Shown piece after piece: positions 37,131-42,549 of a stretch of DNA of 64,000 nt (positions are counted from its first letter, which is position 1; each line of letters opens with the position of its first letter). Made by a program: the position numbers and the translations under genes. This DNA comes from Synechococcus elongatus PCC 11801 (GTDB lineage Bacteria > Cyanobacteriota > Cyanobacteriia > Synechococcales > Synechococcaceae). Under the pieces are notes generated by a model. It saw only the letters and a program-made list of their open reading frames with translations, ran no database searches and was not told the origin of the DNA. The DNA lies in assembly GCF_003846445.2 (NCBI RefSeq), contig NZ_CP030139.2, forward strand, positions 1,426,001 to 1,490,000. Direction: 5' to 3'.

Positions 37131-37177
37131 TCAATCGAACGAGTACCCATTGATATTTACCCGGAGCCGTGAGACTC

Positions 37178-37774
37178 ATGACCGAAGGAGCCCTGCGCGT
37201 CGGCCAATTGGCCCCCGATTTTGAAGCGACTGCAGTCGTTGATCAGGAATTCCAAACGATCAAGCTGTCCAATTACCGGGGCAAATACGTCGTTCTGTTC
37301 TTCTATCCCCTCGACTTCACCTTTGTTTGCCCGACCGAAATCACTGCCTTTAGCGATCGCTACGCAGAATTTTCGGCCCTGAACACCGAAATCTTGGGTG
37401 TGTCGGTCGATAGCCAATTCAGCCACTTGGCTTGGATTCAAACCAGCCGTAAAGAAGGTGGTCTGGGCGACTTGGCTTACCCACTGGTTGCTGATCTCAA
37501 GAAAGAAATCAGCACCGCTTACAACGTGCTTGATCCTGCTGAAGGCATTGCTCTGCGCGGCCTGTTCATCATCGACAAAGACGGTGTTGTCCAGCACGCC
37601 ACCATCAACAACTTGGGATTTGGTCGCAGCGTGGATGAAACCCTGCGCGTGCTGCAAGCAATCCAGTACGTTCAAAGCCACCCCGATGAAGTTTGCCCGG
37701 CTAACTGGCAGCCTGGCGCCGCGACGATGAACCCCGACCCTGTCAAGTCGAAAGAGTTCTTCGCTGCTGTCTAA
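37178..37774 (+). CDS. 2-Cys peroxiredoxin
   Basis: 198 residues from ATG 37178. Peroxidatic Cys in [17 protein letters not shown] and resolving Cys in [13 protein letters not shown]: a typical 2-Cys Prx (AhpC/Prx1), as in chloroplasts. [19 protein letters not shown] carries the GG(L)G motif of sensitive Prx, and the C-terminal tail ends KSKEFFAAV rather than YF, so sensitivity to overoxidation is uncertain. It reduces H2O2 and alkyl peroxides using thioredoxin. GTG 37169 is an alternative start with a close GGAG. A T-tailed terminator follows. Confidence 0.95.
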
Positions 37775-37825: not shown

Positions 37826-37855
37826 GGAGCTCCAGTCATTGGGGCTCCTTTTTTT
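37826..37855 (+). terminator. Intrinsic terminator of prx
   Basis: GGAGCTCC, loop AGTCATT, GGGGCTCC, then seven T; 52 nt after the prx stop. Confidence 0.85.
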
Positions 37856-37909: not shown

Positions 37910-38827
37910 ATGCTAAAAGTGAAGAATTGTAAAGCTGCTGTTTGCATGAGCCCAGAGTCCAGCGACGGACATGATCTGCGGCGATCGTTTCGGGATCGCG
38001 AGGAGCTGATCGACTACCTGCGTCAGCAATTCCCCGAGGCTGCGGCCGTCGCCCCCCAGGTCAGCACCATGCGGGGCGGCTATCAGGCCGCGATCGCTCA
38101 GCTCGACGCGATCAATCCACTGCGCTATGGCAAAACTCGCAACTTTTTAGATGGAGCAGTGACGCGCCTGTCACCTTACATCCGCCACGGTGTCCTCAGC
38201 CTGGCAATAGTGCGCGATCGCGTCCTCAGTCAAATTCGCCAGCGCAGTGATGGCGAGAAACTGATTACCGAACTGGCTTGGCGCGACTACTGGCAGCGTC
38301 TCTACTGGGAATGGGGCGATCGCATTTGGCGCGATCGCGAACCCTACAAGACGGGATGGAATCTCGAACAGTACGGCGAGTCGCTGCCAACTGATCTGCA
38401 AGCTGCTGCGACAGGCTTAGCCTGCATGGATCGCTTCAGTCGCGAACTGCAAGCAACCGGCTACTTGCATAACCATGCCCGCATGTGGCTGGCGGCCTAT
38501 CTGGTTCATTGGCGACGGATTCGCTGGCAGGCTGGTGCGCGCTGGTTTCTCCAGCATTTGCTCGATGGCGATCCGGCTAGCAACAACCTGTCCTGGCAAT
38601 GGGTAGCCAGCACCTTTAGCACTAAGCCCTACTGGTTCAATCGCGAGAACTTACAACGATACAACGGCGATCGCGACTGTCAGGATTGCCCGAGTCGCGA
38701 TCGCTGTCCTTTTGATGGCAGCTATGACGATCTTGCCGACCAACTCTTTCCTAATGCTGAATTCCGCGACCAACCCCGCCAAGGCGGACGTTGGCACCGC
38801 GATCGCTCCCACTCACGCCAGCGCTAA
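37910..38827 (+). CDS. Photolyase/cryptochrome FAD-binding domain protein lacking the antenna domain
   Basis: 305 residues. The whole reads as the C-terminal, all-helical FAD-binding half of the DNA photolyase family: RLSPYIRHGVLSLAIVRDRV (89-105 region), ELAWRDYWQRLYWEWG, GYLHNHARMWLAAYLVHWRR, then LDGDPASNNLSWQWVASTFS with PYWFNRENLQRY. The N-terminal alpha/beta antenna domain is absent here but resembles the next gene. A short Cys cluster, Cys257/Cys260/Cys266 (CQDCPSRDRC), follows the FAD region and could bind metal. The function may be short-photolyase repair or a light sensor. The start is uncertain: ATG 37910 or 37946, neither with a good ribosome site. Confidence 0.85.
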   Translation: MLKVKNCKAAVCMSPESSDGHDLRRSFRDREELIDYLRQQFPEAAAVAPQVSTMRGGYQAAIAQLDAINPLRYGKTRNFLDGAVTRLSPYIRHGVLSLAIVRDRVLSQIRQRSDGEKLITELAWRDYWQRLYWEWGDRIWRDREPYKTGWNLEQYGESLPTDLQAAATGLACMDRFSRELQATGYLHNHARMWLAAYLVHWRRIRWQAGARWFLQHLLDGDPASNNLSWQWVASTFSTKPYWFNRENLQRYNGDRDCQDCPSRDRCPFDGSYDDLADQLFPNAEFRDQPRQGGRWHRDRSHSRQR

Positions 38828-38830
38828 AGC

Positions 38831-39265
38831 ATGAGCCAGCCCATTGTTTGGATCCATGGGGATGATCTCAGTCCCCAAAACCCTGCCCTTCTGCGCTATC
38901 CCCAAGCTCCAGCCTTGTGGGTCTGGGATGATCAGCTGCTCCAGGAGTGGCAGATCAGCTTGAAACGCATCGTCTTCATCTACGAGTGCCTGCTGGAGCT
39001 GCCGGTCACCATTCGGCGCGGTGATCCTGTCCAAGAACTCCAGCGCTTTGCCCAAACGCACGGGGCCGATCGCCTCGCCACAACCGATAGCCCCAGCCCG
39101 CGGTTCAACCAGATCGCCGATGCGATCGAAGCAGACTTGGATCTAGAAATCTGCGATGGCCCTGAGTTCGCTGCAATCGAGGGCTATGTCGATCTCAAAC
39201 GCTTCTCCCGCTACTGGAAAACAGCTCAGCAGTGGGCGTTTGAACCAACGAGCAGGGACCACTAA
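38831..39265 (+). CDS. Photolyase-type alpha/beta (antenna) domain as a separate protein
   Basis: 144 residues, three bases after the FAD-domain gene and so probably translationally coupled. SQPIVWIHGDDLSPQNPALL, APALWVWDDQLLQEWQIS, LPVTIRRGDPVQELQRFAQ, GADRLATTDSPSPRFNQIAD and LEICDGPEFA follow strand by strand the N-terminal Rossmann-like domain of photolyases (start 'vlWfrrDLRl.DNpAL', 'rrGdp...l..la...ga...', 'DG..l'). Together with the preceding gene it would rebuild a complete photolyase from two chains, but encoded in reverse domain order. Homology is by eye and moderately strong. Confidence 0.75.
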   Translation: MSQPIVWIHGDDLSPQNPALLRYPQAPALWVWDDQLLQEWQISLKRIVFIYECLLELPVTIRRGDPVQELQRFAQTHGADRLATTDSPSPRFNQIADAIEADLDLEICDGPEFAAIEGYVDLKRFSRYWKTAQQWAFEPTSRDH

Positions 39266-39294: not shown

Positions 39295-42200
39295 CTACGA
39301 ATCTACCTTGGACTTGTTAGGCGTCGCCCCGACAGAAGGCCGTGACTGGCGATCGGATAAGAGCGGCAAGCTCCGCCAGACTGGGTGTTGCTCAGTCCAA
39401 CGATCGGCGATCGCATGGAGCAGCACGTAGAAGCAGGGAATGATCAGCAGCGTCAGCACCGTCGCCAGTGACAGTCCCGAAAAGACCACAATGCCCAAGG
39501 GCTGCAGGAACTCACTGCCCTGTCCCATGCCTAGTGCCAAAGGCAGCATCCCCAGCACCGTCGTCAAGGTCGTCATCAGCACTGGGCGCAACCGTTGGGG
39601 TGCGGCTTGCAGCATGGCTGAGCGGCGATCACAACCTTGCTCTTCCCGTAGTTGGTTGGCCAGTTCCACCAAGATGATTGCGTTGTTGACGACGATCCCG
39701 ACCAGCAGCACCACCCCAACTACCACGGTCGCCCCGATCGCAGTGTTCGTGAAATACAGTCCCAGAATCCCGCCAGCTAAGGCCAAGGGCAATGTGAACA
39801 TAATCACCAGCGGGTCAATCAGGGAGTTGTACTGCACCGCCATGACCACATAGACCAAGAAGGCCGCCAACGCTCCCAGAATCGGTAGACTCGCCTGCAA
39901 CTGGCGGTTGCTCTCGGCGGCACTACTGGGTAACAGACTGACATTCGCGGGCAGATCCACTGTGGCAATCAAGCGTTCTGCTTCGGCAAGGGCAGCACTC
40001 AGGCTAGCGCCTTGGCTAAGGTTGCCGGCAATTTGGAAGACCTGCCGCTGATTAATCCGCTGAATTTCCGCGGGCGCTGTTCCCGTTTCCACGCGGGCAA
40101 TATCATTCAGGCGAATCAAGGAGCCCGTATTGCCAAATAGCGGTAGTTGCAGCAACTGAGCTGGCGTATTGAGTGCCGTGTCAGCCACTTCCACCCGCAC
40201 ATCCACTAGGCGATCGCCTCGCTGTAGGCGTGTGGGAATTGACCCCTCGATCGCCGTCTGAATCGTGCTGCCGACGCGACTGGGATTAAGCCCCAAGGCT
40301 GCGGCTCGTTCGCGATCGAGCTGGATGCGCAATTCTGGCTCGCGGCGATCGCTATCCGGACGATAGCGGGCCAGTTGCGATTGCCCCAGAGCCTGCATGA
40401 CTTGTTCCCCTGCGATCGCCAGCTGCTCGCGGTCATCACTCTGGAGAATGATGTCAATATCAGCCCCACGCAGGGGTGAGTTGTTAGTGATCAGACCCCG
40501 TACCGCGCCGGGCGTGACGCGCACCAGCGTATCAACCAGATTGAGTTGATTGAAAGCGGGGGTCAGCCGTTCCACAAAGCGATCGACATCGCTTCCCGGC
40601 TTCAAAGTGATCGTGCTGGAACTACGCAGGACATTGGTTGTGGTGTTGGCACCAAATAGCGACCCACCAATGGTGGTGAAGGCATAGTCCGTTTCTGGTT
40701 GTTCGAGGAGCAACTCTTCGATCGCTGTCATCACCCGCTGGTTATCCGCGAGCGGCGTTCCGGGTGGAAATTGCACAAACAGTTGCGCTTGGCCTGTATT
40801 GATTCGCGGCAAAATCTCCTGCGAGAGCTGCCCCAGCAACGAAGCACCACTCAGCCCCAAGATCAGAAAGGCGATCGCGATCGTACGCAGTGGTCGGGCG
40901 ATCACCCGCCGGAGGAACTGACCATAGGCTGTTTGGAGCCGCGCAAACTGATGCTGAAAGGCCAACAACGGCGGCCAGCGATCGAGACCGCTGGTTTCCT
41001 TACGCGCCAAGAGGCGTGAGGCCAGCGCTGGCACCACGGTCAGCGCCACCAGAATCGAAGCAGCAACCGCAAAACTGATCGTCAGAATTAGTTCACTGAA
41101 GAGCAAAGAGATGAAGCCGCCCAGCATCAAAAAGGGCAGCACCGCCACCAAGTTGGTTGTCGTCGAGGCAATCAGCGCCGATTCCACCTTCTGGCTACTC
41201 TCGATCGCCCGCTTAATCACTTGACGTGGTGAAAGCAGGCTGCGGCTATCTCGCCCTGGCGTGATCCCAACGCCGTCTGCGATCGTTTCCAGCATCACGA
41301 TCGAGTTATCGACGACGATGCCGACCCCCAGCGCTAACCCACCCAAGCTAAAGATGTTGAGCGAAAAGCCCGCCAAGCGCATCATCACGATCGCCGCCAG
41401 AGTTGCCAGCGGGATCGAGATCACGATGATCAGGGTTTGTCGCCACGATCCGAGGAACAGCAAGACTGCGAGGGCTGCAAGGACTGCACCCGCTAACCCA
41501 GAGCTGGTGACGTTGCCGATCGCGTTTTGAATAAAAATCGACTCGTCCAGCGTCGGTAACACCTGAATGCCTTGACCGAGGACTTGATTGGATTGGAGCT
41601 GACTCAAGCGCTGCTTAACTGCATCCACCACCGCGATCGTGTTGGCATCCGGCTGCTTCTGAACGCTCACTTTGACGGCTGGCTCGCCATTCAAGCTGAC
41701 GAAAATACGCTGTTCGGCACTGCCATCAACCACCCGCGCAAAATCACGCAGCAGCAGCTGTTGAGACGGATCGGCTTCGCTGCCAGCCCGTTCAAAAGTC
41801 AGATCCAGAATGTCTTGCGCATTTTGAAAGCGCCCCGTCGTCCGAGTCAGAGGCTCCGCGCTGCCCAGCAGTCGCCCACCCGAAACATCTTGGTTACTCT
41901 CTTGCAGTTCATTGAGGACGTTATCAAGACCCAACCCTAAGGCTTGCAGGCGATCGGGATCGATCAAGACCCGCACTTCCTCTTCGAGACCGCCGGTAAC
42001 ATCAACCGCCGCCACCCCGGGCACTAAGGTTAGCTCGCGCGCGAGTTCTTCTTCAGCGAGGAGGCGTAACTCTTGCGGCGATCGCTCGGTGGAAGAGAGC
42101 GCAAATTCATAAACCGGCAACTGGGACGGATCGAACTTGAACAGTCGCGCATCTTCAATGCCTTCAGGCAGGCGCGATCGCGCTCGGTTAAAAGTAGCCG

Positions 42201-42549
42201 TCGCGTCGTTGAGGGCTTGGTCAATATTGCCACCCGGCTCAAAGAAGAGGTCAATGCTGACATCCCCTTCCCTCGTGCGCGAAAAGATTTGCACCACGCC
42301 TTCAGTAGCCGAGAGGGATTCTTCTAAGGGCTTGGTGACCTCCTCGACAGCAATTTCCGGTGCGAGACCCGGTGCACTGAGACGCACCCCAACGCGGGGA
42401 TAGGTGATTGAAGGCAGCAGATCTACCTGCAGCCGGCTGACCAAGAAGAGCGCCACGACAATGGTGGCCACGGTCAGCATCAAGGTGCCAATGTGGCGAC
42501 GAATCGAGAGGCCGCTGAGGCTGAGCTTTGGAGGGGGAGTTTGGCTCAT
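39295..42549 (-). CDS. RND-family efflux transporter (AcrB/HAE1-like)
   Basis: 1084 residues with the RND duplication: N-terminal helix (GTLMLTVATIVVALFLVS), large periplasmic loop, TM2-6 bundle containing VGIVVDNSIVMLETI (proton-relay Asp in the TM4-like segment), then a second half with VVLLVGIVVNNAIILVELAN and LTTVLGMLPLALGMG. It exports small hydrophobic compounds with the proton gradient. The ATG overlaps the stop of the upstream adaptor gene by 4 nt (ATGA), so inner-membrane pump and adaptor are made together; no outer-membrane TolC-like gene is next to them. Confidence 0.95.
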   Translation of the reverse strand: MSQTPPPKLSLSGLSIRRHIGTLMLTVATIVVALFLVSRLQVDLLPSITYPRVGVRLSAPGLAPEIAVEEVTKPLEESLSATEGVVQIFSRTREGDVSIDLFFEPGGNIDQALNDATATFNRARSRLPEGIEDARLFKFDPSQLPVYEFALSSTERSPQELRLLAEEELARELTLVPGVAAVDVTGGLEEEVRVLIDPDRLQALGLGLDNVLNELQESNQDVSGGRLLGSAEPLTRTTGRFQNAQDILDLTFERAGSEADPSQQLLLRDFARVVDGSAEQRIFVSLNGEPAVKVSVQKQPDANTIAVVDAVKQRLSQLQSNQVLGQGIQVLPTLDESIFIQNAIGNVTSSGLAGAVLAALAVLLFLGSWRQTLIIVISIPLATLAAIVMMRLAGFSLNIFSLGGLALGVGIVVDNSIVMLETIADGVGITPGRDSRSLLSPRQVIKRAIESSQKVESALIASTTTNLVAVLPFLMLGGFISLLFSELILTISFAVAASILVALTVVPALASRLLARKETSGLDRWPPLLAFQHQFARLQTAYGQFLRRVIARPLRTIAIAFLILGLSGASLLGQLSQEILPRINTGQAQLFVQFPPGTPLADNQRVMTAIEELLLEQPETDYAFTTIGGSLFGANTTTNVLRSSSTITLKPGSDVDRFVERLTPAFNQLNLVDTLVRVTPGAVRGLITNNSPLRGADIDIILQSDDREQLAIAGEQVMQALGQSQLARYRPDSDRREPELRIQLDRERAAALGLNPSRVGSTIQTAIEGSIPTRLQRGDRLVDVRVEVADTALNTPAQLLQLPLFGNTGSLIRLNDIARVETGTAPAEIQRINQRQVFQIAGNLSQGASLSAALAEAERLIATVDLPANVSLLPSSAAESNRQLQASLPILGALAAFLVYVVMAVQYNSLIDPLVIMFTLPLALAGGILGLYFTNTAIGATVVVGVVLLVGIVVNNAIILVELANQLREEQGCDRRSAMLQAAPQRLRPVLMTTLTTVLGMLPLALGMGQGSEFLQPLGIVVFSGLSLATVLTLLIIPCFYVLLHAIADRWTEQHPVWRSLPLLSDRQSRPSVGATPNKSKVDS

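Follow-up and report, generated by a model that had tools for sequence, protein, structure and literature searches.

The genes phr4 and phr5, which stand side by side in Synechococcus elongatus PCC 11801, probably specify a single DNA photolyase of two subunits, the first carrying the FAD domain and the second the alpha/beta antenna domain. Both lie within the window, the whole stretch of 64,000 nucleotides that was analysed (contig NZ_CP030139.2, positions 1,426,001 to 1,490,000 of the forward strand). An earlier note on this DNA had taken the pairing to be distinct from known systems, but the pair is the Phr4/Phr5 of Haney et al. 2022 (PMC9426592), who described adjacent phr4 and phr5 genes in marine Synechococcus, some Cyanobium and Nostoc punctiforme, and a single-gene fusion, phr6, in two Cyanobium strains. 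The choice between a frameshifted single protein and a heterodimer was left undecided by Haney et al. (PMC9426592). New here are the comparative evidence on this two-chain question and the linking of the literature on short photolyases (SPL) with that on Phr4/Phr5.

Both open reading frames were located on the plus strand in the reversed order that the earlier note had described, namely a FAD gene followed after 3 nt by an antenna gene, giving two chains. The features of the locus are listed below in window coordinates.

37826..37855, plus strand: terminator-like hairpin in the gap that separates phr4 from the peroxiredoxin gene upstream
37910..38827, plus strand: phr4 (SephrC-type gene), photolyase FAD domain, 305 aa, without N-terminal antenna domain
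38264..38632, plus strand: Pfam FAD_binding_7 core of Phr4, residues 119-241, with E121, W124, M192 and W231 and the electron-chain Trp 206 and 229
38423..38425, plus strand: Cys172 codon of phr4, predicted first [4Fe-4S] ligand
38678..38707, plus strand: Cys257/260/266 (CxxCx5C) of phr4, predicted remaining [4Fe-4S] ligands, aligned with the CxxC...C of SePhrB
38825..38833, plus strand: phr4-phr5 junction (TAA stop, AGC, ATG start), with other frames or distances in relatives
38831..39265, plus strand: phr5, photolyase alpha/beta antenna-domain protein, 144 aa
39200..39217, plus strand: RFSRYW motif of Phr5 in its C-terminal helix, suggested interface with the FAD domain

The gap between the two genes is 3 nt long (TAA AGC ATG), and therefore both are in the identical reading frame in the window. 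Since relatives of Phr4 align only from about residue 20, as judged by the alignment with homologues, the true start of phr4 may be Met13 (ATG at nt 37946). The terminator-like hairpin upstream of phr4 weakly suggests that phr4-phr5 forms a transcription unit of its own; such hairpins are a weak signal, two being found against 1.7 expected by chance. The promoter scan of the window locus gave no signal exceeding chance. As assigned by eye from the sequence, the upstream neighbour (37169-37774) is a peroxiredoxin gene and the downstream neighbour (39295-42549, opposite strand) encodes an RND-type efflux transporter. No further photolyase gene was found in the neighbourhood of phr4-phr5; the genome carries three photolyase genes, one of class I (about 94% alike to 1OWL, judged by eye), one of SePhrB type, and phr4-phr5.

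The likeness to the pair of Haney et al. extends to details. In both cases the FAD gene precedes the photolyase-domain gene on one strand, in reversed order, and C172, C257, C260 and C266 of the window protein match C169, C254, C257 and C263, the four FeS cysteines of Phr4 from Synechococcus RS9916 (PMC9426592), with the CxxCx5C spacing kept. The species differ, and the window open reading frames are in frame with a 3-nt gap, whereas those of RS9916 are out of frame. Compared with genomes of family f19, presumably the marine Synechococcus/Cyanobium family, the identity of the window proteins was about 55-63% for Phr4 and 41-50% for Phr5, and the Phr4 tree supports orthology.

The proposal that Phr4 is the FAD-binding half of a photolyase without N-terminal domain was borne out by a Pfam search and by alignment with solved photolyases. 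Phr4 matched Pfam FAD_binding_7 with 79.5 bits (cut-off 27) over residues 119-241, and its alignment with solved photolyases was confined to their C-terminal half, the best relatives being class I photolyases. An N-terminal domain was absent from Phr4 in the Pfam search and in the alignment to solved photolyases, and the PF04244 N-terminal domain was absent as well. For Phr5, the score against Pfam DNA_photolyase was 22.6 bits, below the cut-off of 26.6, and that against PF04244 was 13.2 bits (cut-off 22.1); DNA_photolyase was matched by 36 of 41 Phr5 homologues. Because a phmmer search with Phr5 found no significant match among PDB sequences (best E 0.18, or 0.062 with the profile), its antenna identity is missed by sequence search alone. 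By profile-profile comparison, the Phr5 profile matched the class I N-terminal domains (96.9%, E 1.9e-10), and in a Foldseek search with the AlphaFold model of Phr5 (pLDDT 84) all of the top 50 hits were photolyases or cryptochromes. These comparisons by profile and by structure, which the earlier note had proposed for its assignment of Phr5 to the photolyase alpha/beta domain, agreed with each other and with that assignment. As modelled, the fold of Phr5 matches the photolyase antenna domain.

The distribution of both genes was analysed in a sample of 291 cyanobacterial genomes. Phr5 was detected in 57 and Phr4 in 58 of these genomes; all 57 Phr5 genomes, which span 25 genera and eight families, also carry Phr4 (Fisher p 3e-60, a naive value that ignores kinship), so that the window phr4 has orthologues in 56 further genomes of the sample, in addition to the more distant G026. 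This sole Phr4-only genome encodes a single 441-aa protein with a Phr5-like domain fused at its C terminus. As a group with the C-terminal domains of two Persicobacter proteins, this domain matched Phr5 (hhalign 91%, E 1e-6). The genes phr4 and phr5 are non-adjacent in 18 of the 57 genomes; 10 pairs are separated by 0.48-4.9 Mb on one contig, and 8 are on different contigs of draft genomes, which do not give the true distance. Linked pairs are always arranged as phr4 then phr5 on one strand, with junctions between -47 and +1623 nt in which frames 0, 1 and 2 are all present and ATGA and TGATG overlaps are common; the start codons at junctions were picked by script, and single cases may be off. 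At 42 of 80 named phr5 loci, mainly of Nostocales, no Phr4 was found within the fetched flank of at most 2.5 kb (shorter where contigs end), and for several of these 42 loci phr4 is located a few kb off in complete genomes. The strict co-occurrence, the non-adjacent pairs and the presence of all three junction frames altogether point to an obligate two-chain enzyme, and argue at the level of comparative sequence against recoding as a general mechanism.

Some loci of the sample are irregular. One genome carries, in addition to an intact pair, a second, truncated phr4-phr5 copy (L041; G282 C1 293250-293917; identity to the window proteins 63-64%). In L031 (G239) phr4 is broken across two frames near the FeS cysteines, and in L020 (G039) it is cut early by an in-frame stop, with phr5 intact in both; these phr4 genes may be either pseudogenes or sequencing errors.

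Natural fusions of Phr4 and Phr5 always have the FAD domain first; several Cyanobiaceae (family f19) carry them, as do three Deinococcus plasmids (L199, L208, L209), while Deinococcus sp. QL22 (L200) carries the split form with overlapping phr4 and phr5 genes. In current annotation the Deinococcus plasmid genes, including that of L200, appear merely as 'FAD-binding domain-containing protein', and the split antenna gene of L200 as 'hypothetical protein'. In the FAD-domain tree, where many forks are open, the fusions sit nested between split proteins, which suggests that fusion took place several times. The term 'permuted', which the earlier note had used, holds strictly for the natural fusions but not for the window, where the domains are two separate proteins.

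For a structural view of the pair, the window proteins were modelled as a single chain, with TAA read as a residue and with five paired alignment rows. The joined model reached a pLDDT of 87.6 and a pTM of 0.88, with an unstructured linker. The pLDDT of the C-terminal helix of Phr5 climbed from about 60 in Phr5 alone to about 90 upon joining to Phr4, and the model is thus suggestive of an interface between this helix and the Phr4 FAD domain. Within the RFSRYW motif of the helix, R124, F125, R127, Y128 and W129 are invariant. Structural searches with the joined model covered almost only the FAD domain and were silent on the placement of Phr5, because the aligners follow chain order.

The possible metal site that the earlier note had seen in Cys257/260/266 proved to be a real cluster, completed by Cys172. 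At least 90% of the homologues have each of the four cysteines, in an alignment that included non-members; the cluster is missing there from G227, the distant G026 and a class I protein. When the Phr4 profile was aligned with SePhrB, the (6-4) photolyase of the same genome (L203), all four cysteines coincided, though the alignment is weak (20 bits). According to Chen et al. 2022 (PMC9178010), each SePhrB protein binds iron and sulphur at about 3.5 Fe and 4.2 S. As the four cysteines of Phr4 fall on the ligands of SePhrB, and SePhrB binds about 3.5 Fe, we infer with good reason that Phr4 carries a [4Fe-4S] cluster. One phr4-phr5 pair (L059, G227, 1078-2319) is without any of the four FeS cysteines; since G227 keeps phr5 beside this cysteine-less phr4, the cluster would be dispensable for the pairing.

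With respect to the lesion pocket, E121, W124, M192 and W231 of Phr4 align with E274, W277, M345 and W384 of E. coli photolyase, and W206 and W229 align with the inner Trp chain. The functional roles of the E. coli pocket and Trp-chain residues are general knowledge. The pocket of SePhrB differs, since its His-His (YSHHIQR) is replaced in Phr4 by His-Asn (YLHNHAR), and the pocket Trp residues of Phr4 are absent from SePhrB. Because the Phr4 residues match those of the E. coli class I enzyme and differ from those of SePhrB, the pocket looks to be of CPD type, contrary to the (6-4) repair that Haney et al. predicted from the FeS cysteines and from the contrast between UV-C and UV-B (PMC9426592). 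CPD repair is then more likely than (6-4) repair, and we lean toward CPD, possibly in single-stranded DNA, as the substrate of Phr4/Phr5. The RS9916 phr4 mutant, for which UV-C survival was 20-30 times below control, showed no UV-B defect (PMC9426592), which fits CPD repair poorly.

This UV-C-specific sensitivity is in favour of the pair being a (6-4) photolyase, as are the positional equivalence of its four FeS cysteines to those of SePhrB and the structural list, in which FeS or prokaryotic (6-4) photolyases stand at the top (Z 16.7 and 16.6 versus 15.3 for the next). Nevertheless, we hold the (6-4) reading to be rather unlikely: the pocket residues are of CPD type with His-Asn at the His-His position, (6-4) lesions are already served by SePhrB in S. 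elongatus, and Phr4 stands far from SePhrB in the tree, where SePhrB forms a long branch.

The nature of the antenna was approached through CofH, which is needed for 8-HDF. A strong CofH was present in the window genome and in most Nostocaceae. In twelve f19 genomes that carry Phr5, CofH was absent or gave matches no better than E about 5e-4; the match in G048 had E 3e-5. Phr5-bearing f19 genomes of marine type without CofH are exemplified by G137, G187, G219, G223, G255, G286 and G289. As these twelve genomes are without clear CofH, 8-HDF was ruled out as the universal Phr5 antenna, and judging from gene content Phr5 in these genomes must hold a chromophore other than 8-HDF, or none. In the alignment with the A. 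nidulans 8-HDF enzyme, Arg51 has its counterpart in the invariant R46 of Phr5, but Ser stands in Phr5 where that enzyme has D101 and E103. We take Arg51 and D101/E103 of the A. nidulans / S. elongatus enzyme to be 8-HDF-related, the two acidic residues presumably contacting 8-HDF.

Such partial conservation of the 8-HDF ligands, together with the lack of CofH in some Phr5 genomes, would suit a self-sufficient, antenna-less short photolyase Phr4, with another task for Phr5, for instance in folding, in carrying 8-HDF or flavin, or in regulation. SephrC has indeed been classed as an SPL, a group defined by the missing alpha/beta domain (PMC9649867, and passages of PMC9178010). We regard this as improbable, because every Phr4 genome in the cyanobacterial sample has a Phr5-like domain and the fusions unite both domains in one chain. 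The earlier note had also offered photoreceptor or repair enzyme as alternatives, of which repair fits the published data and a sensory role found no support. Regulatory roles are described for FeS-BCP relatives such as RsCryB in passages of PMC9178010, but a cryptochrome-type photoreceptor is very improbable here, given that the catalytic residues of Phr4 are intact and that E. coli carrying the homologous phr4/phr5 pair is protected from UV-C (PMC9426592). Hardly credible is recoding, a programmed frameshift or stop-codon readthrough that would join Phr4 and Phr5 into a Phr6-like fusion: Haney et al. put it forward for marine Synechococcus, in view of the strictly conserved junction there (PMC9426592), natural fusions exist, and the window open reading frames, being in frame, would become one if a single TAA were read through, but as a general mechanism it was ruled out by the unlinked pairs (18 of 57) and by junctions that vary over all three frames and gaps up to 1.6 kb. 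Readthrough at the window locus itself, unlike family-wide recoding, may be compatible with the sequence.

Phr4/Phr5 can be set beside known systems. According to passages of Chen et al. 2022 (PMC9178010), S. elongatus PCC 7942, a close relative of the window genome, has three photolyase genes, the third being SephrC, an SPL; by its description SephrC is the same gene as the window phr4, and the passages that describe it do not mention an adjacent phr5. SPL proteins, which by description have no alpha/beta domain (PMC9649867), share with Phr4 a FAD domain without N-terminal alpha/beta domain; the group is defined by this absence, whereas the window has such a domain as a separate co-occurring gene, if the pair is one enzyme. 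NewPHL / Phr7 of Dinoroseobacter, Methylobacterium and Prochlorococcus likewise have the FAD domain first and an extra domain behind, with related FAD domains, but unlike Phr4/Phr5 they are single chains without FeS cysteines. An inverted topology is stated for the NewPHL/SPL group (PMC13274461). Between the NewPHL/Phr7 C-terminal domain and Phr5, homology was not detected by profile comparison (hhalign 0.8%), which is not proof of its absence. The FeS-BCP or prokaryotic (6-4) photolyases (SePhrB, AfPhrB) carry four FeS cysteines at positions equivalent to those of Phr4, but differ from Phr4/Phr5 in the one-chain organization, the N-terminal PF04244 antenna domain and the (6-4)-type pocket. 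Class I CPD photolyases (Anacystis nidulans 1OWL, E. coli Phr) share pocket residues, part of the Trp chain and the antenna fold with Phr4/Phr5, but form one chain with the antenna first and without FeS cysteines.

In the model that we propose, Phr4 and Phr5 would be translated from separate start codons, by termination-reinitiation where the genes touch, and would assemble in trans. Catalysis would fall to Phr4, with its FAD, lesion pocket and predicted [4Fe-4S] cluster. Phr5, the small subunit of alpha/beta fold, would dock on Phr4 where the N-terminal domain usually sits, probably via its C-terminal helix with the RFSRYW motif, and would either hold an antenna chromophore or stabilise the complex. 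Blue or UV-A light, absorbed by FADH- itself or by the antenna, would bring FADH- into its excited state, from which an electron would pass to the UV lesion and back.

One and the same gene has thus been treated in two unlinked literatures, as antenna-less and possibly ancestral in the SPL papers and with an antenna-like partner by Haney et al. On balance we favour the view that the antenna is an obligate, separately encoded and often unlinked subunit, that the cyanobacterial 'antenna-less ancestral' short photolyases are two-subunit enzymes, and that the marine antenna is not 8-HDF. The cyanobacterial SPLs would then be weakened as models of an antenna-free ancestor. If the enzyme is composed of two chains, it would be a naturally occurring system in which the antenna can be supplied or withheld as wanted and the role of the FeS cluster probed, with S. 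elongatus as a genetically tractable host for the question.
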